Below, piece after piece: positions 1,310 through 20,917 of a DNA stretch of 20,917 nucleotides; position 1 is the first letter of the stretch, and every line of letters begins with the position of its first letter. Location: the NCBI GenBank assembly GCA_018648445.1, contig JABGRG010000070.1, positions 1 to 20,917 on the forward strand, in the 5' to 3' direction. Source of the DNA: Rhodospirillales bacterium (GTDB lineage: Bacteria; Pseudomonadota; Alphaproteobacteria; Rhodospirillales_A; JACZKS01). The notes beneath the pieces are model-generated. The model saw only the letters and a list, made by a program, of their open reading frames with translations. It did no database searches and was not told the DNA's origin. The position numbers and the translations under genes are program-made.

Positions 1310-2380
1310 CTAAAAGCGGATATGCGCTGACGTGTTCAAGGTCGGCCGCGCCCAACGCCAATCGTCGATGTGATGGCGGGTGAACGGCAGATTGGTGAGC
1401 TCGAAGAAACGCGGCCAGCCGATCCGCTCGACCCATTCGCCAACACGCTCAAACGGGCGAGCATCGGCACGATAGGCTTCGAGGATCGTCGTGACGGCCT
1501 CGGAGACCTCGGGCCAGCGCGGCGGATTGTTGGGCAGGCCGGAAATCACCAGCTTATGGAAGGTCGGTTTGCTGCGCGCATTGGAGTTCTTGCCACCGAT
1601 CCAGATGGCGATCTTGGTGTGTTCGGGATCGTTGATCTGCATGGGCGGGCAGGGCGGGTAGCAGGCGCCGCAGCACATGCACTTCTTTTCATCGACCTCA
1701 AGGCTCGGCATGCCGTTGACGACAGCCGGGCGGATCGCCGCGACCGGACAACGGGCAATCACCGTGGGCCGTTCACAGATCTTGTTGACCAGATCGTGAT
1801 TGATGATCGGCGGTTTGGTGTGCTGCACGTTGATGTCGATATCACCGTGGCCGCCGCAGTTGATCTGGCAGCACAGCGTATTGATCTTCACCTTGGCGGG
1901 AAAACGCTCGTTGATGAAGTCTTCATAGAGCGAGTCCATGATCGCCTTGACCACACCCGAGGCATCGGTGCCGGGAATGTCGCAATGCAGCCAGCCCTGG
2001 GTATGGGCCAGTTGCGAGATCGAGCCGCCGGTTCCGCCGACGGGGAAACCCTCGTCGTTCAGACGCTTGATCAGCGGTTCGACCTGGCTTTCGTTGGTAA
2101 CCATGAATTCCGCGTTCGAGCGGGTCGTGAACCGAAGGTGACCGCTGCAATATTCATCCGCGATATCGCACAACACACGGATCGTATAGACGTCGAGCTG
2201 ACGCGACGTTCCGGCCTTAACGGTCCACACTTCATCGCCGCTTTCGGCGACGTGATACAGCACGCCGACGCGCGGACGCTCGTGATATTTCCACTGTCCG
2301 TAGTTCTTTCTCAGAACCGGGTGCATCCACGGCATATGATCGGGGACGCCGCTTTCGATGGGTTGACGGGGTTCAGCCAT
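1310..2380 (-). CDS. dsrB: Dissimilatory sulfite reductase, beta subunit (reverse/oxidative type)
   Basis: The 356-residue product is the siroheme-bearing beta subunit of DsrAB. In the oxidative direction the enzyme converts DsrC-bound sulfur to sulfite in the cytoplasm. Visible features are the siroheme/4Fe-4S region with Cys133 in HTQGWLHCDIPGTDASG and LCCQINCGG (Cys171-x3-Cys175), and a ferredoxin domain with CMCCGACYPPCPP at about residues 234-245. The C-terminus has the family-typical ERIGWPRFFELT. I start at the ATG at 2380, which has GGAGG five bases upstream; an upstream TTG at 2392 lies on top of that site and is unlikely. It follows dsrA by 45 bases. Length is normal for DsrB. Confidence 0.96.
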   Translation of the reverse strand: MAEPRQPIESGVPDHMPWMHPVLRKNYGQWKYHERPRVGVLYHVAESGDEVWTVKAGTSRQLDVYTIRVLCDIADEYCSGHLRFTTRSNAEFMVTNESQVEPLIKRLNDEGFPVGGTGGSISQLAHTQGWLHCDIPGTDASGVVKAIMDSLYEDFINERFPAKVKINTLCCQINCGGHGDIDINVQHTKPPIINHDLVNKICERPTVIARCPVAAIRPAVVNGMPSLEVDEKKCMCCGACYPPCPPMQINDPEHTKIAIWIGGKNSNARSKPTFHKLVISGLPNNPPRWPEVSEAVTTILEAYRADARPFERVGEWVERIGWPRFFELTNLPFTRHHIDDWRWARPTLNTSAHIRF

Positions 2381-2425
2381 TCTGTCCTCCAAAAACCTAT
2401 TCTTTTTCTTGACGCTCTCGCCGGA

Positions 2426-3676
2426 TTATTTGGCGGCGGTCGTCTGACTCTTGTTCCATTTATCAGCCTGTTCGTCCCAATCATCCATGCGCACGTAAGA
2501 ATTTTCGCGGGGATGGACGACCATATTGGGATCAACTTCCAGGCCGAGGCCCTCAATGAAGTTCGGCAGACCGATACGTTCGATCATCTCGCCGGTTCGC
2601 TCGTGTTCGAGCGCGTTTTCGGCGTAGAACTCGATAATGTTCTCGGCCAACTCCAACAGCTTGTCGTAGTCCTCATCCGTCTTGAGACGCATGAACGGAA
2701 CAGCGACGACGCCCATCAAATCACCGATTTGCAGGGTGTGCTTGCCGCCCAGAAGGATCGTCACGCCGCGGTCCTTGCCCGGGCGCAGAGCCTTCGTCAT
2801 GACGTTGATGCAGTGCATGCAACGAACACACGACGGGTTGTCGACTTCAACGGTATCGTCGTCGTTGAGACTCATGGCATTGGTCGGGCAACGCGTGATG
2901 ACGTTGTCGATAATGTACTTGCGGCCCTTTTCGGCGACGTATTTCTTGAACTCGCCTTGGTCGACCTGCATGTCGTCTGCCCAGGTGCCGATGATGGCGC
3001 CGTCCGAACGGTGGATGGCGTCGGCGCAGTCGTTCGGGCAGCCCGAGAACTTGAACTTGAACTTGTAGGGCAGCGACGGACGGTGCAGTTCGTCGATCAT
3101 GCCATTCAGGATCATGCGCATGGAGCGCGCTTCGTCATAGCACGAGAATTCGCAACGGGCTTGGCCGACGCAGGCTTGTGAGCTGCGAAGGCAGGGGCCC
3201 GCACCGCCCATGTCGAAGCCAATCTCGTTAAGTCCGTCAAAGGCTTCCTGAACCTGTTCGGTCGAGCAGCCCTGAAACATGATGTCGCCGCTTTGGCCGT
3301 GCAGGGCGATGAGGCCGGTGCCGGATTCTTCCCAGATGTCGCACATCTTGCGCAGAACGTCTGTGCTGTAGTGATAGCCCGCCGTTGGCATGATGCGCAG
3401 GGTGTGGAATTCAGCAGAATCCGGGAACTTGTCGGCAACTTCCGAAAAACGCGGAATAACGCCGCCGCCATAGCCGCGAACGCCAACGACGCCGCCTTTC
3501 CAATATCCCTTGATGGTGTTGTAGGAATATTCAAGCTGACCCAAAAGATCCTTCATGCGGTCGGCATATTGTTTGTCATCCGTCTCGGCCAACCTTTTCA
3601 GGTTGGTGACAAAGCTCGGCCAGGGACCACTTTCAAGTTGGTCGAGCATTGGCGTTACTGGCATTTTTTTTGCCAT
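2426..3676 (-). CDS. dsrA: Dissimilatory sulfite reductase, alpha subunit (reverse/oxidative type)
   Basis: This 416-residue protein is the alpha subunit of the DsrA2B2 sulfite reductase. The siroheme/4Fe-4S ligands are in order: Cys169-x5-Cys175 (QACVGQARCEFSC) and Cys213-x3-Cys217 (SGCPNDC). A ferredoxin domain follows, with Cys263 and Cys283-x2-Cys286-x2-Cys289. The N-terminal region VVGVRGYGGGVIPRFSE is diagnostic of DsrA. GGAGGT lies nine bases before the ATG at 3676. It is the first gene of the operon; upstream is a 540-base gap that must contain the promoter. The adjacency of dsrEFH and dsrC indicates sulfur oxidation; a tree placement would confirm the oxidative branch. Confidence 0.96.
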   Translation of the reverse strand: MAKKMPVTPMLDQLESGPWPSFVTNLKRLAETDDKQYADRMKDLLGQLEYSYNTIKGYWKGGVVGVRGYGGGVIPRFSEVADKFPDSAEFHTLRIMPTAGYHYSTDVLRKMCDIWEESGTGLIALHGQSGDIMFQGCSTEQVQEAFDGLNEIGFDMGGAGPCLRSSQACVGQARCEFSCYDEARSMRMILNGMIDELHRPSLPYKFKFKFSGCPNDCADAIHRSDGAIIGTWADDMQVDQGEFKKYVAEKGRKYIIDNVITRCPTNAMSLNDDDTVEVDNPSCVRCMHCINVMTKALRPGKDRGVTILLGGKHTLQIGDLMGVVAVPFMRLKTDEDYDKLLELAENIIEFYAENALEHERTGEMIERIGLPNFIEGLGLEVDPNMVVHPRENSYVRMDDWDEQADKWNKSQTTAAK

Positions 3677-9160: not shown

Positions 9161-10321
9161 TCACGGCCTTACTGCCGGCGGCAGTTTCCACAGGCGTTCG
9201 GCGTTACCGTGGGCCAGGGCGTGGGCAACATCGTCGGGTATCGTTGTCAAGGTTTGACGCCAGACCTTGACTTGGGGAAGGAAGTTTTTTTCCCAGTGAA
9301 AGGCGAATACGTTGTCGAAGGCGAGAACGAAACGCGTTGGGTTGGCAATCACCAGCTTTTCCCACGCGGGCGCAAATTTTTCGTCGACGATCATCCGCGT
9401 CCACGGCTGCGAGGTGTCGTTGTAGGCCACCGGATTGCTGTGGGACGTTATGAAGAACAAATTCGGGTGCTTGGGCAGCAGGCGCGCTGCGTCACCGGCC
9501 TTCAACTGGCCCATATGGATCATGCCGATGGGAACATCCCGGTTGGCGGCCAGAAAGGTTTCGAGCTTCTTCATATACCGTGATTTGGCGCCGCCCATGG
9601 CCCCGAATTCCACGTGGGCGATGAACGGAAAGCCCTTTTGCCGTGCTGTGTCCATGAATACCGCGACGCGCGGATCATCCGGGTCCATGGTTGCTTTTCC
9701 GGCGCCGACTTTTTTCTTTGCGGCATGCCACATGATGATCTCAGCCACGGCGCGGTAGTCGTGCCTTTCCAGTTCCTTGAAAAACATACCGGGGAATTTC
9801 CCGGTGTTTTTGGTGAATGCCTTGGTCTTGCTTTTGGCGGCGGGAATGATCCTGTCGGGGTGGCGGGCCGCCAGTTCCAGAACGTCCGATGACGGTTGCT
9901 GGAAGCGGGTCGACAGGATGACCTGAGCGACACCAGCCTGATCGAGCATGGGGATGATCGTGTCAACATCCGTGTCCTCGTCGATCTGGCTGTGGGCGTC
10001 GATAAGAGGGCCCTGCCAACCTCCGCTGGGTGCTGCGGCGGTTCTGGTTTTGGCGGCACGCTTGGTTCCGCCACTCGATCCTGTCCTCTTGTCTCCGGGA
10101 AGCTCCTCGATTGTCAGATAGCTGTCACCGTTTCGGTCCAACTTTTTGAACGCCTTCTTGTTCTTTTTCCATTCCTTGCGGCTAATTTTTCCGTCACCGT
10201 TTCGATCCATGGCTTTGAGGATTTGTTTGGGGTCCTTGGCCTGAGCCTCGCCACTTTTCATCATCGGCACGCTTGCTACCAAGAAAACAGCAATAAGGCG
10301 AAAAACGAGTAATCTCATCAC
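9161..10321 (-). CDS. Secreted EF-hand / amidohydrolase-2-like fusion protein
   Basis: The 386-residue product has a signal peptide (residues 1-28, likely cleaved after AQA). Two canonical EF-hand loops follow, Asp39-Glu50 (DRNGDGKISRKE) and Asp62-Glu73 (DRNGDSYLTIEE). After a basic linker comes a TIM-barrel domain of amidohydrolase-2 style: LIDAHSQID (His110), IAHVEFG (His236), MIHMG (His269), LAFDN (Asp336). The usual HxH metal pair is altered to His-x-Gln (Gln112), so catalysis may use a changed metal site or be lost. The EF-hands suggest calcium binding in the periplasm. It converges on the S41 protease gene with no base between the two stop codons, and its promoter must lie in the 234-base gap before cyclase 1. 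Confidence 0.75.
   Translation of the reverse strand: MMRLLVFRLIAVFLVASVPMMKSGEAQAKDPKQILKAMDRNGDGKISRKEWKKNKKAFKKLDRNGDSYLTIEELPGDKRTGSSGGTKRAAKTRTAAAPSGGWQGPLIDAHSQIDEDTDVDTIIPMLDQAGVAQVILSTRFQQPSSDVLELAARHPDRIIPAAKSKTKAFTKNTGKFPGMFFKELERHDYRAVAEIIMWHAAKKKVGAGKATMDPDDPRVAVFMDTARQKGFPFIAHVEFGAMGGAKSRYMKKLETFLAANRDVPIGMIHMGQLKAGDAARLLPKHPNLFFITSHSNPVAYNDTSQPWTRMIVDEKFAPAWEKLVIANPTRFVLAFDNVFAFHWEKNFLPQVKVWRQTLTTIPDDVAHALAHGNAERLWKLPPAVRP
9171..9185. terminator. Short hairpin at the convergent gene junction
   Basis: ACTGCC-GGC-GGCAGT is a perfect 6-base-arm hairpin eleven bases after the protease stop codon, inside the last codons of the opposing gene. It is followed by only three T residues on the plus strand, so it is a weak terminator candidate. 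Confidence 0.25.
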
Positions 10322-10461
10322 TTCAACCCCTTGGAAAAACTGTTTGTTCCGGGATTTTCTGCGATTTCCCGGATAGCCGTCAAATTGACGTCAGCACAAT
10401 ATCGGGCCGCGCGGAGCCGCTCTGGAGAATTTGCGCGAAACGTTGCTACAGTTTCTATATA

Positions 10462-10504
10462 TGTGAAGTGGTTCACTCTGCTGTAGCCATTAAACTGTGT
10501 TAAG
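10462..10504 (+). promoter_or_regulatory. CRP-like operator upstream of cyclase 1
   Basis: TGTGA-N6-TCACT at 10462-10477 matches the CRP consensus TGTGA-N6-TCACA at nine of ten bases. Its centre is 86.5 bases from the start codon at 10556. A TG dinucleotide (10496-10497) followed by a weak GTTAAG -10 candidate (10499-10504) lies at class II distance. The site is in the divergent gap, so it could instead or also serve the minus-strand EF-hand gene. The alphaproteobacterial regulator could be any CRP/FNR family member with a GTGA half-site. Confidence 0.45.
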
Positions 10505-10555
10505 CTACATCACTTCCGCGATTGCAGCGGTTGAGGGGGGCGCGCGCCGAAGTTA

Positions 10556-11749
10556 ATGTCCGATAGACCGATCGAACGTAAGCTGCTGGCAATCCTGTAT
10601 GCCGATGTCGCGGGCTACAGCCGTTTAACGGGTGTGGACGAAGAAGGCACGCATCGGCGCTTAAGCGAATACATGGATGCGTTCTCGGCGGCCATCGAAG
10701 AGGGTGGCGGCCATGTCGTGCATTATGCGGGCGACGCTATTCTTGCCGACTTTGGTAGCGTGGTTGATGCACTCAATTGCGCAGTGTCGGTTCAGCGCGA
10801 CCTCAAGAGCCGCAATGAAACCGCGAACAAGGACCGGCGGGTCGAGTTTCGTATCGGCATCAACCTGGGCGAGGTCATGGTTGATCGCAATGACATTTAC
10901 GGCGACGGCGTAAATGTCGCGGCGCGCCTGGAAGGCTTGGCCGATGTCGGCGGGATTTGTGTCTCCGAGGCGGTCTACACTCAGGTTCGTGGCCGGGTCG
11001 ATTTCGGGTTCGAGCGTCTCGGTCGTCAGCGGGTAAAGAACATCGCTGATCCGGTTGTCGCCTATCGCGTGGTTGTTGACGGACAGGCGCGAATATTCAA
11101 ACAGCATCTCCAACAAAAACTGGCCTGGATCAGCCCGAAGCGCATTGCAGTCGGGACCGTCTTGCTTTTGGCGCTCGTGATCGTTGCCGGAGGTTGGGGC
11201 CTTTCAGTGTCGGATGAGCGCATTGATACCGCTCCATCGGTCGCCGTGGCACCTTTTCGGGTAATCGGCGGCGGCACGGAGCCCTTTGCGTTCAGTGACG
11301 GCCTGACCATCGATTTGGTCACCGAGCTTTCCAAGCAGACGGAATTGAGAATTGTCGCACCCCCTGCGGGAGCGGCGGCCGGACCGTCAAATGATCCCGT
11401 CGCCGCGAAAGCGCGCTACCGGGTTGAAGGGAGTGTCCGCCAGGCCGAAGGAAGGGTGCGCATCACGGCCCAGTTGGTTGGCGTGGAAAAAGGCTTCCAC
11501 TTGTGGGGTGCGCGGTTCGATCGCGAGTTCAAGGATACGCTTGCGGTCCAGGAGGATGTTGCCAAGAAAATCGTCGCCGCCCTCGCAGCCCGCCTCACCG
11601 AGGCCGAGGCCGAACGCGTCGAAACGGGGGTGACACCGATGGGGTTGCTGGTAACGGGAATGGAACAGTTGGGACGGCTTGGCGAAGGGGCGGTATCGGC
11701 CCAGTCGAGCGTGTTCGAATGGCTCCTGGGCGGGGCGAATGATGGTTGA
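10556..11749 (+). CDS. Membrane-anchored class III nucleotide cyclase with TolB/FlgO-like domain, no TPR tail
   Basis: The 397-residue protein starts with a class III cyclase catalytic domain. The metal-binding aspartates are Asp17 (YADVAGYSRL) and Asp60 (AGDAILADF). The base-selecting Asp113 and transition-state Asn120/Arg124 (DIYGDGVNVAARLEG) are present. The position normally held by the adenine-recognising Lys is His56. One transmembrane helix (about 195-216) follows, then a TolB/FlgO-like extracytoplasmic domain (VAVAPFRVIGGG ... FHLWGARFDREF ... VQEDVAKKIV). It ends soon after this domain, where the paralogue at 13270 continues into TPR repeats. It probably makes cAMP (or cGMP) at the inner membrane in response to an envelope signal. 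GAGGGG precedes the ATG at long spacing. Confidence 0.85.
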   Translation: MSDRPIERKLLAILYADVAGYSRLTGVDEEGTHRRLSEYMDAFSAAIEEGGGHVVHYAGDAILADFGSVVDALNCAVSVQRDLKSRNETANKDRRVEFRIGINLGEVMVDRNDIYGDGVNVAARLEGLADVGGICVSEAVYTQVRGRVDFGFERLGRQRVKNIADPVVAYRVVVDGQARIFKQHLQQKLAWISPKRIAVGTVLLLALVIVAGGWGLSVSDERIDTAPSVAVAPFRVIGGGTEPFAFSDGLTIDLVTELSKQTELRIVAPPAGAAAGPSNDPVAAKARYRVEGSVRQAEGRVRITAQLVGVEKGFHLWGARFDREFKDTLAVQEDVAKKIVAALAARLTEAEAERVETGVTPMGLLVTGMEQLGRLGEGAVSAQSSVFEWLLGGANDG

Positions 11750-11761
11750 GCTGATTGCAAG

Positions 11762-11804
11762 TGTGAACCGGTTAACAGACGTCGCAGCGATTGCATGGTA
11801 CGAC
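11762..11804 (+). promoter_or_regulatory. CRP-like operator upstream of the bactofilin-like gene
   Basis: TGTGAACCGGTTAACA at 11762-11777 is a near-perfect 16-base palindrome (one mismatched pair) and matches TGTGA-N6-TCACA at nine of ten positions. The centre is 62.5 bases before the ATG at 11832. TGG followed by TACGAC (-10 candidate, 11799-11804) is at the same offset as in the other two CRP-like sites of this window. The -10 match is weak. Confidence 0.35.
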
Positions 11805-11831
11805 AGAATACGAAATGAGTGGAGAAAGCCG

Positions 11832-13127
11832 ATGTCAATGGCGCGAATCAAACGGATTTCAGTACTTGTCGTGGCGCTGGGCGTGTTGATGCCTTTCGGC
11901 GCAATCGCCGAGGAAAACGACGAGGAAGTGGTCAAGACTGGGTTCTTTACCAAAGACCTTTTCGTTCGCGGCGAGCATGTTTCGATTCGCGCTGAAGTCG
12001 ACGGAGATGTCGTTGCCATAGGTGGCGAGGTCGACGTCCGTTCCGGTACCACCGGTGACGTGATCGCAATGGGTGGCAACATTTCCCTGGACGGGCAGGT
12101 CGGCGGTGAAATTTTGTCCGCGGGTGGCGAGATCGAGATAGATGGCATCGTGAATGGCGGGACCGTCGCAATCGGCGGCCATGTCGACATTGATGGTAAA
12201 ATCACCGGTCCCGTTTTGGCCGTCGGTGGGCAGGTGACAACAGACGGCACCATCGACCGTGATTTGAAAATCCTCGGTGGACGGGTCTTTCACGAGGCGG
12301 TCGTCAATGGCGATCTACTCATTGCAGCCGGTGACGCCAGACTTTCCGAAACATCCGTTGTTATGGGCAAGGTTTGGATAACCGGTGGGCGGGCCGCAGT
12401 CCGCGGAATGGTCGCGGGCAATTTGCGGGTGGCCGCGCGCAGAATCGTCATCGCGGGCGAGGTGACCGGCGACGTTAATTTGGATGGCGTTGACATCGAG
12501 GTTTTGCCAAGCGCCGTCATTCACGGCAATTTTATCTACAGTTCCCCGAGCGAGGCCAATATTCACGCAGACGCCAAAATTGCCGGAGATGTTGCATTTC
12601 ACAGGACTGAGGCGCCGCGCCATGCGGTCGGTTTTGCATTTGCTGCGGTTGGTTTCGTGAGTCTTATGGCCGTTGGTGGCGTAATCCTCCTGGGGACAAT
12701 CCTGCTTCTGCTCTGCCCCAGCGCGTCGATCGCTGCCGCCCGCAACGTTGGTGCGAGGCCCTGGGCGGCCTTGGGGCTGGGATTTGCCATCCTCGTTACG
12801 GTTCCGGTGGTGATCGTTATTCTGATGGTTAGTGTGATTGGCATTCCGCTGGCGATCTTCCTGATCGGCCTTTACGTGCTGATCAAGATGGCTGGCCTCT
12901 TGGTGTTGTCGACGGCCGTTGGCATGAGAATAATGCGCCTGTTCGGCAAAACTTGCGGCGACACGTTCTGGCCGAAGCTGGGCGTGCTGGTTATCGGCGT
13001 GCTGACCGTCTTCATCATTGCGCTAATCCCGGTTGTCGGCGTTATTGCGCTATTGATCGCCTGGGTCATTGGCACTGGCGCGCTGGGTCTCAAGGTTCAC
13101 AACGCCTACTGCTGCGCACCGTCGTAG
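11832..13127 (+). CDS. Exported bactofilin-like beta-solenoid protein with C-terminal membrane domain
   Basis: The 431-residue protein has a signal peptide (cleavage likely after AIA, residue 26). About 200 residues of short glycine-hydrophobic repeats follow (units such as GDVVAIGGEVDV, GDVIAMGGNISL, GGTVAIGGHVDI, GPVLAVGGQVTT), the right-handed beta-helix signature of the polymer-forming cytoskeletal (bactofilin/DUF583) fold. The last 160 residues contain about four hydrophobic segments, including VSVIGIPLAIFLIGLYVLIK. The solenoid would therefore lie in the periplasm, anchored in the inner membrane, unlike cytosolic bactofilins. GGAG seven bases before the ATG at 11832 sets the start; the frame is open further upstream but overlaps cyclase 1. 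It lies between two paralogous cyclase genes and ends at a strong terminator. Confidence 0.8.
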   Translation: MSMARIKRISVLVVALGVLMPFGAIAEENDEEVVKTGFFTKDLFVRGEHVSIRAEVDGDVVAIGGEVDVRSGTTGDVIAMGGNISLDGQVGGEILSAGGEIEIDGIVNGGTVAIGGHVDIDGKITGPVLAVGGQVTTDGTIDRDLKILGGRVFHEAVVNGDLLIAAGDARLSETSVVMGKVWITGGRAAVRGMVAGNLRVAARRIVIAGEVTGDVNLDGVDIEVLPSAVIHGNFIYSSPSEANIHADAKIAGDVAFHRTEAPRHAVGFAFAAVGFVSLMAVGGVILLGTILLLLCPSASIAAARNVGARPWAALGLGFAILVTVPVVIVILMVSVIGIPLAIFLIGLYVLIKMAGLLVLSTAVGMRIMRLFGKTCGDTFWPKLGVLVIGVLTVFIIALIPVVGVIALLIAWVIGTGALGLKVHNAYCCAPS

Positions 13128-13155
13128 GTTGACGTTGGACAGCGTAGGAAACGTG

Positions 13156-13187
13156 CGGGCGGGCAAAAGTCCGCCCGTTTCATCTTT
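13156..13187 (+). terminator. Rho-independent terminator after the bactofilin-like gene
   Basis: CGGGCGG (13156-13162) pairs with CCGCCCG (13171-13177); two more inner pairs close an AAAA loop. The stem is followed by TTTCATCTTT. It lies 28 bases after the stop codon and separates this gene from cyclase 2. Confidence 0.75.
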
Positions 13188-13216
13188 GCCAAAAACTCTC
13201 TCCGCAAATCTGGCGG

Positions 13217-13245
13217 TTGCCCTTTTTTCTGATCAAATCTAAGAT
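13217..13245 (+). promoter_or_regulatory. Putative sigma70-type promoter for cyclase 2
   Basis: TTGCCC (13217-13222) and TAAGAT (13240-13245) are 17 bases apart. Transcription would start near 13252, leaving an 18-base leader with GGGG before the ATG at 13270. No CRP-like site is visible here, in contrast to cyclase 1. Confidence 0.4.
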
Positions 13246-13269
13246 TCCCCGGGGACACTGGGGATCGCG

Positions 13270-15162
13270 ATGCAGGACCGACCCATCGAACGCAAGCTGG
13301 CGGCGATTTTCTACGCCGACGTGGCGGGCTATAGCCGCCTGACGGGCCTTGATGAGGAGGGCACCCACCGTCGCCTTAGCGAATATCTGGATGTAATTTC
13401 ATCGGCCATCGAAGAGAGCGGAGGGCGCGTCGTTCATTATGCGGGCGATGCGGTTCTAGCCGATTTCAAGACGGTCGTGGAAGCCGTTTCCTGCGCGATC
13501 TCGATTCAGCGTGATCTGGCCGTGCGAAACCAGCCTTTGCCGGAGGACCGGCGGGTGGAATTTCGCATCGGCATTAATTTGGGCGACGTCATGGTCGACC
13601 GCAACGATATCTACGGCGACGGCGTAAATGTTGCCGCCCGCCTTGAGGGACTTGCCGACGTTGGCGGCATTTGCATTTCCGGCGCCGTTCACGATCAGGT
13701 TCGCAATCGGATGGATGTCGGTTTCGAACCCATGGGACGTCAGCAGGTCAAGAACATCGCAGAACCCATCTCCGCTTTTCGCGTGGTTCTGGATGGGACG
13801 GTGCGCAAACCCGCGCGCCAATGGTCCAAACTATTGTCCAAGGGTCGGATCGCATTGGCCGTGGCATTTGCGGCCTATGTGGTGGGTGCTGGAATTGTGG
13901 CCTGGTATGCCCGGGATCGCGACGCCCAAAGAGAAGTGTTGCAGGCTGAAAGCGAATTGGCGATTCCGCAAAAACCATCCATCGCGGTTCTGCCCTTCGA
14001 CAACCTCAGCGACGACTCCTCACAGGAATACTTCGCCGACGGCATTTCCGAAGACATCATCACGTCGCTTTCCCAAGTGTCCAACTTGTTCGTCATCGCC
14101 CGCAATTCCAGCTTCACCTACAAGGGCCGTGCGGTGAAGATCCAGACCGTCGCGCGCGAACTTGGTGTTCGCTACGTGCTGGAAGGCAGCGTACAGAAAT
14201 CGGGCGGACGCATCCGCGTCAACGCGCAGCTTATCGACGGGGCCAACGGTCGCCATTTATGGGCGGACCGCTTTGACCGTGAATTGAAGGACCTGTTCGA
14301 AGTTCAGGACGAAATTACGCGAAAAATCTGCACCGCGTTGGCGGTCAATCTGACCGAGGGCGAGCAGTTTCGTGTATGGAGCAAGAGTTCCCGCAATATT
14401 GAAGCCTGGGAATTTCTGAACCGGGGCATCGAGCAATTTCACCACTTTGACAAGGATAGCAACGTCAGAGGGCGCGAGCTGATGGAGAAGGCCATCGAAA
14501 TCGATTACGGCTATGCGCTCGCGTACGGAATGTTGGCCTGGAGCCACTGGCTGGACGCGCAGTACAGGTGGACCGAGCACCCGCAAATTTCGTTCGAACG
14601 GGCGGAGGAACTGGCCATCAAGGCGATGGCCCTGGATGACACGATTCCCGACAATTACGCTCTGATGGGGGCCATCCATCTTTTTAAACGCCAATATGCC
14701 GAGGCCATAGCCGCGGGCGAAAAGGCTGTCGCGCTGAGTCCGAACCACGCTACCAATACGGCGCTGTTGGCCATGACCCAAGTGAACGCCGGAAATTTTG
14801 ACGAGGCAATTCTCGGTTTTGACAAAGCCAGGCGTCTTAGCCCGTATCCTGCCGATTGGTTCCTTGAAGCCCAGGGCTGGGCCTACTTGTGGGCAGGGCG
14901 AAGTGAAGAGGCCGTGCAAACATTCGAAGAGTATTTGCAGCGCAAAGATCAGCAAACGCCGGGACACAATGTGCGTTTGGGGATGGCGCTGGCGTTTGCT
15001 GAACAGGGGCGTGAGAACGACGCACGAAAAGCCGTGGGCCAGGAGTTGGCGCTTAGTCCGCACATAACGCTTGGCGGCTTTCGTGGAATGTCTCTGTTCC
15101 ATGACAAAGAAGCATTGCACCGAAAGACCGAGGTGCTCGGCCGCTTGGGGCTTCCCCAATGA
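13270..15162 (+). CDS. Membrane-anchored class III nucleotide cyclase with TolB/FlgO-like and TPR domains
   Basis: The 630-residue protein has a catalytic domain nearly identical in layout to cyclase 1 (Asp17, Asp60, Asp113, Asn120, Arg124, with His56 replacing the usual Lys). A transmembrane helix lies at about 192-213. A TolB/FlgO-like domain follows (SIAVLPFDNLSDD ... YVLEGSVQKSGGRIRVNAQL ... HLWADRFDREL, about 236-360), then several TPR-like helical repeats to the C-terminus (ALAYGMLAWSHW, AIAAGEKAVALSPNHAT, AVQTFEEYLQRK). This architecture is common in rhizobia and related bacteria. The cyclase domain is cytoplasmic; TolB and TPR parts would sense or bind partners in the periplasm. It has its own promoter and a GGGG ribosome site, so it is probably expressed separately from cyclase 1. 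Confidence 0.9.
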   Translation: MQDRPIERKLAAIFYADVAGYSRLTGLDEEGTHRRLSEYLDVISSAIEESGGRVVHYAGDAVLADFKTVVEAVSCAISIQRDLAVRNQPLPEDRRVEFRIGINLGDVMVDRNDIYGDGVNVAARLEGLADVGGICISGAVHDQVRNRMDVGFEPMGRQQVKNIAEPISAFRVVLDGTVRKPARQWSKLLSKGRIALAVAFAAYVVGAGIVAWYARDRDAQREVLQAESELAIPQKPSIAVLPFDNLSDDSSQEYFADGISEDIITSLSQVSNLFVIARNSSFTYKGRAVKIQTVARELGVRYVLEGSVQKSGGRIRVNAQLIDGANGRHLWADRFDRELKDLFEVQDEITRKICTALAVNLTEGEQFRVWSKSSRNIEAWEFLNRGIEQFHHFDKDSNVRGRELMEKAIEIDYGYALAYGMLAWSHWLDAQYRWTEHPQISFERAEELAIKAMALDDTIPDNYALMGAIHLFKRQYAEAIAAGEKAVALSPNHATNTALLAMTQVNAGNFDEAILGFDKARRLSPYPADWFLEAQGWAYLWAGRSEEAVQTFEEYLQRKDQQTPGHNVRLGMALAFAEQGRENDARKAVGQELALSPHITLGGFRGMSLFHDKEALHRKTEVLGRLGLPQ

Positions 15163-16243: not shown

Positions 16244-17535
16244 ACCCGCATGTTGTCACCGGGGTCAAGGGTCGCCGGGTATGGGATTCGCGCGGTCGTC
16301 CCACGGTCGAGGTGGAAATCGATTTGGCGGGCGGGGCCGTGGGCCGGGCCATCGCCCCGGCGGGCGCGTCGACCGGCAGCGGCGAGGCCATTGATCTTCG
16401 TGACGGCGGCGAGCGCCTGGGCGGGTTCGACGTGCAAACGGCGCTGGGAAACGTCAACGGCGAAATCCGGCTTTGCATCGCCGGTATGGATGCCACTGAT
16501 CAGGCGGCGATCGACACCGCACTCATTGAACTGGATGGCACCGAAAACAAAAGCCGTCTCGGCGGCAACGCGACCATTGCCGTTTCTATGGCCGTCGCCC
16601 ACGCCAGGGCGGCTGCGGCGGGTCAGCCGTTATGGCTGTATTTGGGCGGGGACGATGCATGCACTTTGCCGTTGCCCGAGATACAGATTTTCGGCGGCGG
16701 CGCGCACGCGGGCGCGCGCATCGATATTCAGGATTTCATGGTCGTCATGCCCGGCGCGTCCAGCTTCGACGAAGCCCTAGCCTGGACGGCGGACGTTTAC
16801 CGGGTCGCCGGAAAAATGATGGACGAAGCCGGAAAGCTGCAGGGTGTGGCGGACGAGGGCGGCTACTGGCCCGCTTTCGCCACCAACGAGGAAGGTCTGG
16901 AACTTCTAGTCCGAGCAATTGAACGGGCCGGGCTTGTTCCGGGCGAACAGGCGGCCATTTCGCTGGACATCGCGGCAACGGAGTTTTGCCACGACGGCCG
17001 TTACAAACTGGCCCTGGAGGAACGCGAACTGGATTCGGACGGCCTAGCCGATCTGCTGGTTTCCTGGGTGGACCGCTATCCTATCATTTCCATTGAAGAC
17101 CCCATGTCCGAAGACGATGCGATTGGCATGCGCCGCTTTACCGAGGCCGTTGGCAACAGGGTCCAGATCGTTGGTGACGATTTCGTCGTTACCAATGCCA
17201 ATCGCATCAAGCGAGCGGCTGGCGACGGCGCGTGCAACGCGGCCCTGATCAAACCCAATCAGGCCGGAACCCTGAGCGAGACCCATGCGGCGCTCAAAGC
17301 CGCCCGTGATGCCGGGTGGGGGGGCATTGTTTCGGCACGTTCGGGGGAAACCGAAGACGTAACGGTGGCCCATCTGGCCGTCGGGTGGGGTGTATTGCAG
17401 TTGAAGGTAGGCTCGTTCGCCAGGGCCGAACGCATGGCCAAATGGAACGAGGTCCTGCGGATAGAGGAACGTTTGGGGGATCGGGCACGGTTCGTTGGTG
17501 GCGCACCGTTCGCTTCCCTGGCCGGCGCTGACTGA
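16240..17535 (+). CDS. Divergent enolase paralogue (enolase superfamily)
   Basis: The 431-residue product aligns by eye over the whole length of enolase: DSRGRPTVEVE, GASTGSGEAIDLRD, the metal ligands Asp243 (LDIAATEF), Glu286 (IEDP) and Asp313 (VGDD), Glu206 (DEGG), the catalytic base Lys338 (LIKPNQ) and Lys389. Two active-site positions differ from housekeeping enolase: the His of the VSHRSGETED motif is Ala367 (VSARSGETED), and the Glu of DIQEF is Asp165. Metal binding and proton abstraction could be retained while phosphate recognition is changed, so the substrate may not be 2-phosphoglycerate. GGAGG before the ATG at 16240 fixes the start, which overlaps the kinase stop. This is presumably a second enolase homologue, the housekeeping gene being elsewhere. 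Confidence 0.85.
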   Translation: MNPHVVTGVKGRRVWDSRGRPTVEVEIDLAGGAVGRAIAPAGASTGSGEAIDLRDGGERLGGFDVQTALGNVNGEIRLCIAGMDATDQAAIDTALIELDGTENKSRLGGNATIAVSMAVAHARAAAAGQPLWLYLGGDDACTLPLPEIQIFGGGAHAGARIDIQDFMVVMPGASSFDEALAWTADVYRVAGKMMDEAGKLQGVADEGGYWPAFATNEEGLELLVRAIERAGLVPGEQAAISLDIAATEFCHDGRYKLALEERELDSDGLADLLVSWVDRYPIISIEDPMSEDDAIGMRRFTEAVGNRVQIVGDDFVVTNANRIKRAAGDGACNAALIKPNQAGTLSETHAALKAARDAGWGGIVSARSGETEDVTVAHLAVGWGVLQLKVGSFARAERMAKWNEVLRIEERLGDRARFVGGAPFASLAGAD

Positions 17536-17568
17536 GGCAAAACCGATTTGGGCCTGTCATAGCTGCGC

Positions 17569-17597
17569 TTGAACTCGACGTTGGGCGCGTTCATTAT
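17569..17597 (+). promoter_or_regulatory. Putative sigma70-type promoter for the lipoprotein gene
   Basis: TTGAAC (17569-17574) and CATTAT (17592-17597) have a 17-base spacer, predicting a transcript start near 17604 and a leader of about 29 bases containing the GGAGGG ribosome site. Confidence 0.35.
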
Positions 17598-17632
17598 TGG
17601 ATTTGACACTACTATATGTGGAGGGCTTAAGA

Positions 17633-18187
17633 ATGATGGCTCCTGGAAAAATCGCGGTATTGCTTTCGTTGGCATTTTTGGCCGGATGTGCATCCCAGGC
17701 GGCTGCGCCCGTGCAGGGCCCAATCCAGCCGGTGGTGGGCGACGTGTTTCATTTGGATGTCGCTCAAATCGAAATTTTCCGACCGGCGGCTGAACCGGGC
17801 ACGGTGATCGATATGTCAACCGCCGTTGAGAACTGGCTGCGCAAACATTTGGTGGCTGTTGGCACGAGTGGCCGTATCCGGGCCGGGATTAACAACGCTG
17901 CGGTTCGCGAATCGGTCATGCGCCGCACCGCGCCGGGCGGAACTTCCTTTAACCGCGTTCGTCAATACGACGGGATGGTCCATGTTCGCATCGATGCGAC
18001 CAATCGTTCGACCGGGCAAGCAGGCTTTGCCGGTGGATCGGCCAGCCGCAGCCAGACCGTCGCGGCGGATATTCAGGTTGCCCAGCAGCATCAGGTGGCT
18101 TCCGATATGGCCGATGCCTTGATGCGCGATTTTTCATACTCGCTGTCGGCCGACGTTCGTCAGCGGCTCGCAAAATTCCTACGATAA
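17633..18187 (+). CDS. Predicted outer-membrane or periplasmic lipoprotein of unknown function
   Basis: The 184-residue product has a type II signal peptide: a Lys near the N-terminus, a hydrophobic stretch and the lipobox LAGC with Cys19. The mature part is a mixed alpha/beta domain of about 150 residues with strands such as QIEIFRP and GMVHVRIDATN, and a C-terminal helix SADVRQRLAKFL. I do not recognise the family; the overall shape recalls small envelope lipoproteins of the YajG or LptE kind, without a firm match. GGAGGG at 17620-17625 fixes the start at the first of two adjacent ATGs; the frame opens earlier at a non-ATG codon but without a ribosome site. It stands alone between the enolase-like gene and the giant adhesin. 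Confidence 0.75.
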   Translation: MMAPGKIAVLLSLAFLAGCASQAAAPVQGPIQPVVGDVFHLDVAQIEIFRPAAEPGTVIDMSTAVENWLRKHLVAVGTSGRIRAGINNAAVRESVMRRTAPGGTSFNRVRQYDGMVHVRIDATNRSTGQAGFAGGSASRSQTVAADIQVAQQHQVASDMADALMRDFSYSLSADVRQRLAKFLR

Positions 18188-18194
18188 AGTTACC

Positions 18195-18237
18195 GCATCG
18201 GAGTCTTTTGCCGCACGGATGGCGACGACTCCGATGC
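18195..18237. repeat. 11-base perfect inverted repeat after the lipoprotein gene
   Basis: GCATCGGAGTC (18195-18205) and GACTCCGATGC (18227-18237) are exact reverse complements with a 21-base loop that can form a small GCC/GGC inner stem. It begins eight bases after the stop codon. The nearest T-run (18250-18254) is too far away for a standard terminator, so it may act as a 3'-end stabiliser, a Rho-linked terminator or a protein site. Confidence 0.6.
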
Positions 18238-18315
18238 AAATCTCCCCGTTTTTGTTGCCGGATTGGGCTATATCCTGTCTGTCGGCGATCTTCGAAAAAC
18301 CGCGGAAATCCGGGC

Positions 18316-18359
18316 CTGTGACGTCCGTCACAGCCAATATCTTTTCTCCCTGATATATT
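18316..18359 (+). promoter_or_regulatory. Perfect CRP-type operator with extended -10 promoter
   Basis: CTGTGACGTCCGTCACAG (18316-18333) is an exact inverted repeat with 8-base arms and contains TGTGA-N6-TCACA without mismatch. TGATATATT at 18351-18359 supplies an extended -10 (TGn plus TATATT). The predicted transcript start, near 18366, is 41.5 bases from the operator centre, the classic class II CRP geometry. This promoter would give the giant repeat gene a leader of about 180 bases. Confidence 0.6.
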
Positions 18360-18426
18360 TGGCAAGACTGGATTGGCGCCTGTGCGCCCGTTTGCACGTA
18401 AGGCTTTGAGTTAATTGATAAAATTT

Positions 18427-18475
18427 TATGGATATTTGGATCGAATCAACGTCGTATTTCTTCGATTTATCCATA
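18427..18475 (+). repeat. AT-rich imperfect hairpin in the predicted leader
   Basis: TATGGATA (18427-18434) pairs with TATCCATA (18468-18475), and inside it ATCGAA (18440-18445) pairs with TTCGAT (18461-18466); the two stems are joined by a 5-base versus 1-base bulge. It lies between the predicted transcript start and the ribosome site of the giant gene, so it could affect mRNA stability or be a palindromic protein-binding site. Confidence 0.4.
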
Positions 18476-18546
18476 TATCTGTCTAGTTCAACGGGGTGCG
18501 TTGCCTGATTTGGGCATAGAGCGAAGTCTCAAAGGGAGAAAGTAAA

Positions 18547-20917
18547 ATGGCCATCAATGATCTCACCGGCGAATTTGGTTTGCCAGAAGGTGTGACCCCG
18601 GATCACGTTGTCGAGGCATCCGGTTCCGATTCATTGATTCTCCCGGAAGGCTTGCCGCTTTCCGACTGTGAAATGGTTCAGGTTGGCGACAATCTGACAC
18701 TTACCGCGCCCGATGGAACGGTGACCGTTGTCGAAGGATATTTCGGCACCGAGAACCCGCCTCAACTGGTTTCTCCCGGCGGTGGCGAGATGGACGGCGA
18801 TATGGTTTCGCAGTTGGCCGGGCCGGTCGCGCCGGGTCAGGTTGCCGATGCCGGTACGGCGGTCGGCGCCCAGCCCATCGGAACGGTTGAAAGCGCCACC
18901 GGCACGGTGACGGCCACCCGTGCCGACGGCACGCAAGTTCAGCTTCAGACCGGCGATCCGGTTTTCCAGGGCGACATTCTGGAAACTTCCGAAGACGGCT
19001 CCATCGGCGTCGTGCTGGCCGATGAGGCGACCTTCTCCATGGCCGAAGACGGCCGCATGGTGCTGGACGAAATGGTCTATGACCCCGGCACGCAGGAAGG
19101 CTCCATCAACCTCGAGATCGTGCAGGGTGTTTTCACCTTTGTCAGTGGCCAGGTGGCCAAGACCGATCCCGATGCCATGACCTTGACCACGCCGGTGGCG
19201 ACCATTGGTATCCGCGGAACCCAGGTGGGTATTGAAATCCCGGATGGCGAGGAAATGAAGGTTGTCCTCATGGAAGAGGGCGACGGCTTCGTCGGCGAAG
19301 TCGTGGTTATGAACGAATCCGGCATTCAGGTCATGAACTCGTCGGCTGAATTCACCACCATTTCCGGCGCGGGCGTGGCGCCTTCGTCGGTTGGAACCAT
19401 GAGCATCAGCGAAATGGTTCAGTCCTTCTCGAGCGCTTTGCAGGCCCTTCCCCAGACCGATACCAACAACGCCAACGACTACGGCATGAAGGAAGAGCTC
19501 GGCGATGCCGGCGACGAGGAAGAAACCGAGGAAGAAGAACTCGCCGACGTCGAGGAAGAAGCCGAGGAAGAGGAAGCAGGCGAAGAAGTCGTTGAGGAAG
19601 AAGTCGTTGAGGAAGAGGTCGAGGAACTCGCTGACGTCGAGGAAGAGGTCGAAGAGATCGCCGAAGAAGAGGTCGAGGAACTCGCCGACGTCGAGGAAGA
19701 GGTCGAAGATCTGCCGGAAGAAGTTGCCGAGGAGGAGGTTGAAGAGGTCGAGGAAGCCGAAGAGCTGGCTGATATCGATGATGTTGGCGACGCTGACGAT
19801 CTTGCTGATTTCGAAACAGCCTCCGGCGATGAAGGCGGTGATGAAGGTGATGATGACACCGAGGAATTGGCCGATGTCGACGATGTCGGTGGCGGCGGCG
19901 ATGACGGCGGCGATGACGCCGATCTGGATGATATTGAAGACCTTGCCGACTTCGAAACAGCGTCCGGTGACGAAGGCGACGACGGGTTCGGCGAATCCGT
20001 CACCAGAGTGAGCCAGCAGTTCGACGATGACGGCACGGGCGACGATTCAGGCGATGGCACGGGCGACGATGGTGACGACGGCACCGGTGGCGTTGAAGGC
20101 AGCGGCACGGGCACCACCACCACCGACGATGGCTCGACAACCGTTGCCAACGCATTCCCGATTGCGACGGGCGGCGACGTGGATGGTACGTCCGAGGACA
20201 CATCCTTTTCCGGACAACTGTCGGCAACCGATCCTGACGGCGTCTCGCTGACCTTCGGCGGTTCGGGAGATACCGCCCACGGCGAGGTTACGATCAACCC
20301 GAACGGCTCCTACACCTATACGCCGGATCCCGATTACAACGGTACGGACAGTTTCACCTTCACCGTTACGGATGGTGACGGAGCTGTCAGTTCCGCCACG
20401 ATTACCTTTGACGTGGCCTCGGTTGACGATGTTCCTGTCGTGACCGTCGCGGACGCAGTTTCTGGCGGCATGGGAACGGAGATTGATCTCGACATTTCCG
20501 CAGCCATGGATGGGGTTACCACCGAGACGGTTGAATCTATTGAAATTGCCGGTGTTCCCACTGGTGCGACGCTGTCGGTCGGAACCGACAATCTCGATGG
20601 AACGTGGACGATTTCGGGCGCCGAGGACTTGGCCGCGCTGGACGGTTTGACGATTACGTCGGCGTCTGATGACAACTCCGACTTCACACTCAGCGTAACG
20701 TCGACATCGACGGACGGTGGAACATCTGATCCTGTCAACATCGAAGTAAACGTCAACGTCGGCCCCGAAGCGGCAGTTGGCACGGGTGCGACTGATGAAG
20801 ACACAGCCTTTAGCGGCCAGCTTTCTGCGACGGACGAGGACGCGGGCGACACGTTGACGTTCGGTCTGGCCGAAGGCGGCGGGGCGGCGAACGGCACGGT
20901 TACGGTTAATGCGGACG
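18547..20917 (+). CDS. Giant FecR-domain, acidic, Ig/cadherin-like repeat protein (3' end outside window)
   Basis: At least 790 residues are encoded with no stop before the window end. Order: a conserved N-terminal region without a signal peptide (LTLTAPDGTVTVVEGYF ... QLAGPVAPGQ); a FecR-like domain at about 115-235 (GTVTATRADGTQVQLQTGD ... VATIGIRGTQVGIE); a Glu/Asp-rich low-complexity linker at about 318-525 with internal repeats; then tandem Ig/cadherin-like domains (EDTSFSGQLSATDPDG ... GSYTYTPDPDYNGTDSFTF) typical of RTX/BapA adhesins. Lack of a signal peptide fits type I secretion through a C-terminal signal, outside the window. Likely a cell-surface or biofilm adhesin, with Asp-rich loops suited to calcium. 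GGGAGAAAG precedes the ATG, and a CRP-type promoter lies upstream. Confidence 0.85.
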   Translation, partial: MAINDLTGEFGLPEGVTPDHVVEASGSDSLILPEGLPLSDCEMVQVGDNLTLTAPDGTVTVVEGYFGTENPPQLVSPGGGEMDGDMVSQLAGPVAPGQVADAGTAVGAQPIGTVESATGTVTATRADGTQVQLQTGDPVFQGDILETSEDGSIGVVLADEATFSMAEDGRMVLDEMVYDPGTQEGSINLEIVQGVFTFVSGQVAKTDPDAMTLTTPVATIGIRGTQVGIEIPDGEEMKVVLMEEGDGFVGEVVVMNESGIQVMNSSAEFTTISGAGVAPSSVGTMSISEMVQSFSSALQALPQTDTNNANDYGMKEELGDAGDEEETEEEELADVEEEAEEEEAGEEVVEEEVVEEEVEELADVEEEVEEIAEEEVEELADVEEEVEDLPEEVAEEEVEEVEEAEELADIDDVGDADDLADFETASGDEGGDEGDDDTEELADVDDVGGGGDDGGDDADLDDIEDLADFETASGDEGDDGFGESVTRVSQQFDDDGTGDDSGDGTGDDGDDGTGGVEGSGTGTTTTDDGSTTVANAFPIATGGDVDGTSEDTSFSGQLSATDPDGVSLTFGGSGDTAHGEVTINPNGSYTYTPDPDYNGTDSFTFTVTDGDGAVSSATITFDVASVDDVPVVTVADAVSGGMGTEIDLDISAAMDGVTTETVESIEIAGVPTGATLSVGTDNLDGTWTISGAEDLAALDGLTITSASDDNSDFTLSVTSTSTDGGTSDPVNIEVNVNVGPEAAVGTGATDEDTAFSGQLSATDEDAGDTLTFGLAEGGGAANGTVTVNAD
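19615..19710 (+). repeat. 54-base tandem repeat in the acidic linker
   Basis: The 41-base stretch at 19615-19655 recurs at 19669-19709 with a single silent difference (GCT/GCC). The 18-residue unit includes EVEELADVEEEVEE. The near-identity indicates recent duplication or continuing slippage within the giant gene. Confidence 0.75.
19801..19977 (+). repeat. Older 12-residue repeat (141-base spacing) in the acidic linker
   Basis: LADFETASGDEG is encoded at 19801-19836 and again at 19942-19977. The protein sequence is identical but five of twelve codons differ at the third position, so the copies are older than the 54-base repeat and the residues appear to be under selection. Confidence 0.75.
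20194..20917 (+). repeat. Tandem Ig/cadherin-like domains, about 201-residue higher-order unit
   Basis: EDTSFSGQLSATDPD (from 20194) and EDTAFSGQLSATDED (from 20797) are homologous domain starts 603 bases apart. Between them lies a second, different domain (about 20420-20760, containing VESIEIAGVPTGATLSVG). The pattern is therefore A-B-A', and more copies probably follow beyond the window. Confidence 0.7.

Follow-up and report, generated by a model that had tools for sequence, protein, structure and literature searches.

The activating CRP site of E. coli gal P1 is given as both -40.5 and -41.5 in passages of a single review (PMC4693257). For mchA of EAEC, sections of a second source describe a class II promoter whose extended -10 element is supported by mutations, with a CRP motif of two TGTGA elements arranged as an inverted repeat and 6 bp between them (PMC12360894). 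The S. meliloti regulator Clr is described with the consensus HGTYHCNNNNGRWACA and a dual response to cAMP and cGMP (PMC10127613). Among the top matches in the open-access literature, which mostly excludes subscription papers, none dealt with the control of FecR-type giant proteins by CRP in Rhodospirillales. Class II CRP promoters themselves being known, the novelty of the promoter analysed here would lie in its target and its lineage.

The window is the whole stretch of DNA that we analysed, 20,917 nucleotides from a Rhodospirillales bacterium (contig JABGRG010000070.1 of assembly GCA_018648445.1). A scan of the entire window for TGTGA-N6-TCACA revealed one perfect match, at 18317-18332, where 0.013 are expected given the window composition. 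The mismatch-free site described in an earlier note on this DNA is therefore present, and so is its rarity, with our figure taking the place of the chance expectation of about 0.02 quoted there. The 18 bases do not form the exact palindrome that had been claimed: the inverted-repeat arms (18316-18323 and 18326-18333) pair fully, and the central TC has no symmetric partner, which breaks the 18-mer. From the operator centre at 18324.5 to the first hexamer base at 18354 the distance is 29.5 bases, which is class II spacing. The extended -10 TG-A-TATATT (18351-18359) is thus correctly placed, as had been proposed, and a start near 18366 would put the operator at -41.5. An operator combined with a TAnnnT placed exactly at this offset, on either side, has an expectation of 0.0002, and of 0.000015 with the TG included, both values being computed post hoc with the site already seen. 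A sigma-70 promoter scan that requires a -35 hexamer did not list the operator-linked promoter; class II promoters often lack this hexamer.

Table 1. Features of the window and of one related locus
Feature	Position	Strand	Basis or remark
Upstream gene, 196 aa	17597..18187	+	ORF; ends 129 bases before operator
CRP-type operator TGTGACGTCCGTCACA	18317..18332	.	exact TGTGA-N6-TCACA, inverted repeat
TG of extended -10	18351..18352	+	sequence
-10 hexamer TATATT, class II offset	18354..18359	+	sequence; TAnnnT at same offset in relatives
Predicted transcript start	18366..18366	+	inferred from spacing
Second conserved box GATAAAATTTTATGGATATTT in predicted leader	18417..18437	+	kept in relatives
FecR / Ig-cadherin repeat protein, first 790 codons	18547..20916	+	ORF, Pfam; frame open at window end
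246-aa protein (no Pfam family) and CHASE2-cyclase operon	L112:2264-5053 = G001:C40:42264-45053	minus	

The reading frame that starts at 18547 matches the Pfam families FecR, Big_9, Cadherin_5 and Cadherin_4. FecR (PF04773) reaches 28.1 bits against a cut-off of 24 and is accompanied by Big_9 and Cadherin_5, in agreement with the FecR/Ig-repeat protein named in the earlier note; the product is presumably an adhesin. The closest relative found (contig JADHSV010000025.1, 94% over 322 residues) belongs to genome G001, a MAG of Rhodospirillales bacterium isolate BS150m-G3, the isolate name of which would indicate a Black Sea origin. Its FecR-type protein has 3653 aa, with laminin-G-like and DUF4114 domains besides, so that the term giant applies to the closest relative, the window itself holding the first 790 aa. 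The three genes directly upstream have the same order in the window and in the G001 contig, and hmmscan detected no Pfam family at E 0.001 for the upstream gene at 17597..18187. A plasmid origin was rejected: of 61 plasmid records with a match, not one covered more than 80% of the query, and the 20 of these 61 matches that were listed cover the repeat part only. Elsewhere in the window, at 1310-3676 on the minus strand, dsrB and dsrA encode a dissimilatory-type sulfite reductase with scores over the NCBIfam cut-offs, and we take the small frames at 215-1294 to resemble dsrE/F/H.

Upstream of the FecR-type frame, AAGGGAGA (18532..18539, + strand) is presumably the ribosome-binding site. The box GATAAAATTTTATGGATATTT, which follows the predicted start by about 50 bases, is identical in L001 and differs by one base in L002. 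Scanning six genomes, we found exact copies only before the FecR gene of G001 and G002; the four other matches carry 2 or 3 mismatches, and the box was rejected as a global regulator site. It plays no part in the model proposed below. An RNA element in the leader was likewise rejected, since there was no Rfam match in the window and folding was no better than that of shuffled sequences (z 0.42).

Related loci, 74 in number, came from one scan of genome contigs with an N-terminal domain alignment as query, and were selected with protein patterns as the criterion, irrespective of the upstream DNA. Those with less than 400 bp upstream, five in number, were dropped, leaving 69 for comparison. A perfect TGTGA-N6-TCACA was found within 400 bp of the start in 20 of the 69, and nine further loci carry the operator with one mismatch. 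The 29 other letter orders of the TGTGA half-site gave no match in the 69 upstream regions, nor did any of ten other spacers (range 2 to 12), and among the 1024 inverted repeats of the form 5-N6-5 TGTGA ranks first, with 20 loci against 7 for the runner-up. Of the 20 perfect sites, 11 have TAnnnT at exactly the class II offset (14 within one base), as do five of the nine one-mismatch sites (7 within one base), the background of TAnnnT being about 1.5-1.6% per position. Three near-copy pairs are included in the 20 (upstream regions 87 to 97% alike); with near-copies removed, the exact offset is found in 9/17. Six of the 20 perfect sites lack TAnnnT at offset 36 to 38. The three rows nearest to the window on the tree (L001, L002, L004) keep both the operator, in one case with one mismatch, and the extended -10. 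TGnTAnnnT occurs in the window and these three loci only; the remaining 26 loci that carry a perfect or one-mismatch site lack it. Conservation before related giant genes, which had been set as a test beforehand, was clearly positive on these counts. Operator, -10 element and their spacing thus recur in relatives, and the sequence comparison supports an interpretation as a class II CRP promoter.

With its 8-base arms and 2-base gap, the inverted repeat could also fold, and might then be an RNA hairpin or the terminator of the upstream gene, not an operator. This is scarcely credible, mainly because it leaves the fixed distance to TAnnnT in relatives unexplained. Moreover, no T run follows the repeat, and a terminator scan of 17500-18700 listed 17564-17589 only. 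Weak evidence in the same direction comes from the pairing of inner positions: of 21 sites, 2 are unpairable at positions 6/11 (7 more form G-U) and 7 at positions 7/10. A genomic repeat family was rejected as well, ten genomes having only 3 to 10 perfect sites each, with differing inner letters. A half-site far above its permuted controls, at a fixed distance to a sequence-variable -10, argues for a protein-bound activator site and against a hairpin or repeat.

A bound protein might also repress, if the site overlapped the -35 region of a promoter that is self-sufficient through its extended -10. An extended -10 can function without an activator, and the window and its three nearest relatives each have such an element. 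The class II activation offset, however, recurs among relatives lacking an extended -10, and a repressor would have no need of this spacing; we therefore regard repression as very improbable and retain activation as the preferred reading.

The remaining 40 of the 69 loci have no operator at one mismatch or fewer. In a quick tree of 72 of the 75 rows (L046, L049 and L061 were left out, their frames being too short), the label 'perfect site' needs 9 changes as compared with 17.6 for shuffled labels, so that the operator is clustered on the tree yet comes and goes. No member of a 13-member clade (Magnetovibrio, Thalassospiraceae and other rows) has an operator with at most one mismatch; it is also missing in L063, which groups with L004, and in L054, the second family member in G001. 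Loss of the palindrome in close relatives that keep the gene was named in the earlier note as evidence against its proposal. This applies in part: the closest relatives keep both, and more distant ones, the Magnetovibrio clade for example, have the gene without the operator. Seven loci (L013, L017, L021, L042, L055, L059, L060) display a different palindrome, AGATCA-N6-TGATCT. Its gap is again 6 bases, and it is located around -150 relative to the start, roughly in the position that the CRP site occupies elsewhere in the family; L021 has both this palindrome and the CRP site.

The window being a contig stretch and not a whole genome, the candidate regulator is known from the genomes of relatives. 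G001 encodes a 239-aa CRP-like protein with cNMP_binding and HTH_Crp_2 domains. Its alignment with E. coli CRP showed the recognition helix RETVAR (RETVGR in E. coli CRP) and conservation of the E and RS of the cyclic-nucleotide pocket, at about 20% overall identity. The best NCBIfam match is CRP (NF008732, PRK11753) with 64.7, below the cut-off of 266; the protein is CRP-like and not the E. coli CRP equivalog. Searches at E <= 1e-20 detected the CRP-like protein in 23 of 24 genomes (none in G016), with best identities outside G001 of 49 to 76%; it is split over two frames in G004, and the G022 match contains two stops. RETVAR could be read in 22 of the 23 loci from these 24 genomes, the exception being G022. 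The RETVAR protein is also encoded in G003, G012 and G024, the three genomes searched from the operator-less 13-member clade. As the protein is present with and without a FecR operator, its occurrence is not by itself a predictor of the operator.

A second CRP-like protein was found in G006, G009, G010, G017, G019 and G020, accounting for six of seven weaker matches fetched (loci L217, L218, L219, L221, L222, L223). It has the helix RETVSR, RETVGR or RETVAR and the pocket FGE(L/F)AAIDGL(P/A)RSA; the seventh match, L220 of G003, has no such helix and pocket. All six genomes have a perfect FecR operator, and in these relatives the second protein may bind it. This leaves the odds of our explanation unchanged, as it names a CRP-like dimer and not one orthologue.

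The promoter could nevertheless be real and not a cAMP switch, if the operator served another Crp/Fnr regulator or a CRP-like protein that senses cGMP or no nucleotide. Between 6 and 13 HTH_Crp_2 matches per genome in the eight genomes searched make other regulators available, as does the second CRP-like protein in the six genomes above. By inspection, the window operator fits the Clr core GTNNCNNNNGNNAC; on the other hand, T at position 6 in 16 of 21 sites means that those sites do not fit it. Among solved structures the G001 regulator matches Clr (7pza) best, and Clr answers to cAMP and cGMP (PMC10127613); four aligned orthologues (L208, L210, L211, L214) have RSS or RST instead of RSA in the pocket, which would also suit another signal. 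Against this, all 12 aligned orthologues conserve the pocket RS and ten of them the E (D in G006 and G010), and in G001 and G002 the RETVAR protein is the only one with a RExxxR-type helix and matching pocket among the fetched HTH_Crp_2 loci, a subset of the matches. Another regulator or another signal appears unlikely to us, and a cAMP-bound CRP-like dimer is the reading that we keep.

Genome-wide searches in ten genomes, hand-picked and including seven already known to have a FecR-locus operator, revealed 3 to 10 perfect sites in each (55 in total) and 0 to 3 per genome for a reversed control pattern. The five sites of G001 lie before the FecR gene, before a CHASE2-cyclase operon, just downstream of crp and in two further places, the last three having no TAnnnT at offset 36 to 38. 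At the CHASE2-cyclase operon the perfect site is located between divergent genes, exactly 29.5 bases before TATAAT. This operon was rejected as a general target: relatives of its 246-aa protein were detected in four of the other 23 genomes, with 26-30% identity, and the fetched loci contained no perfect site and one site with one mismatch. In G009, a perfect site that has TAATTT at the offset lies before the gene of an ALTTAQ-repeat protein. G001, G002 and G011 have a perfect site (L194, L195, L196) some 50 to 100 bp beyond the crp-like gene, with CAnnnT at the class II offset; perhaps it serves a small RNA or short gene that CRP activates, and Rfam gave no match for this region of the three loci. 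In all three, CGATCTTCCCTCAAGAGCAGACT occurs 179 to 254 bases beyond the site, and after it come a G+C-rich inverted repeat and a T run.

The window itself contains two one-mismatch CRP-like sites, at 10462-10477 and 11762-11777. Class III nucleotide cyclase domains are encoded by two of its genes (10556-11749, and 13270-15162 with TPR repeats). The first site precedes the cyclase gene that starts at 10556, the second a gene whose bactofilin match is weak, at 27 bits for a cut-off of 27.9. Both were rejected as CRP promoters, as neither has TAnnnT at the exact offset. The DNA from 10000 to 13300 has no match in G001 or G002.

In the mechanism that we propose, a CRP-like dimer with cyclic AMP bound would occupy 18317-18332, over the -35 region, and would help a sigma-70-type RNA polymerase to initiate near 18366, with 18351-18359 as the extended -10. 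The transcript, its leader about 180 bases long, would then be translated from 18547. That the promoter answers to some activator of the Crp family is very likely, and a class II CRP-type promoter with cAMP as its signal is probable; the identity of the binding protein, the need for cAMP and activation are what we infer for this part.

A broader picture is tentative and more doubtful than not. In these uncultured Rhodospirillales, a lineage-specific CRP with few strong targets might make cAMP largely a surface-protein switch, activating the FecR/Ig giant and, in the closest relative, also the CHASE2-cyclase operon, with possible feedback, and a short crp-downstream transcript. Within this one gene family, control of adhesion by cAMP would then have been wired, lost and replaced several times, with AGATCA-N6-TGATCT as the replacing operator. 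If true, the proposed promoter control would give the very large surface proteins of a marine and mostly uncultured group of alphaproteobacteria a cAMP input that can be tested; the signal with which large adhesins are otherwise mainly discussed is c-di-GMP. An operator with a -10 at fixed distance would offer a clean footprint for reading the CRP regulon of the group, and the gene family could serve for tracing gain and loss of one promoter.

The E. coli gal P1 promoter has an extended -10. As in the E. coli class II promoters gal P1 and mchA, the CRP-type site of the window would lie over the -35 region. The locus differs from these in bacterial order, in a candidate regulator only about 20% identical to E. 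coli CRP and in its target, a FecR/Ig-repeat giant protein, and the promoter is here predicted from sequence. With the Clr regulon of S. meliloti it would share an alphaproteobacterial CRP-like regulator, the Clr structure 7PZA (PMC10127613) being the best solved-structure match of the G001 protein; the recognition helices differ, with RPKVNR in Clr and RETVAR in the G001 regulator. The window protein resembles LapA-type adhesins in being a large repeat protein. Its match to NCBIfam retention_LapA (NF033682) at residues 111-176 is weak, with 35.8 bits below the cut-off of 50, and the tand_rpt_95 match is below its NCBIfam cut-off too. LapA-type adhesins carry an N-terminal retention module; in the window protein, FecR (PF04773) scores above its cut-off.
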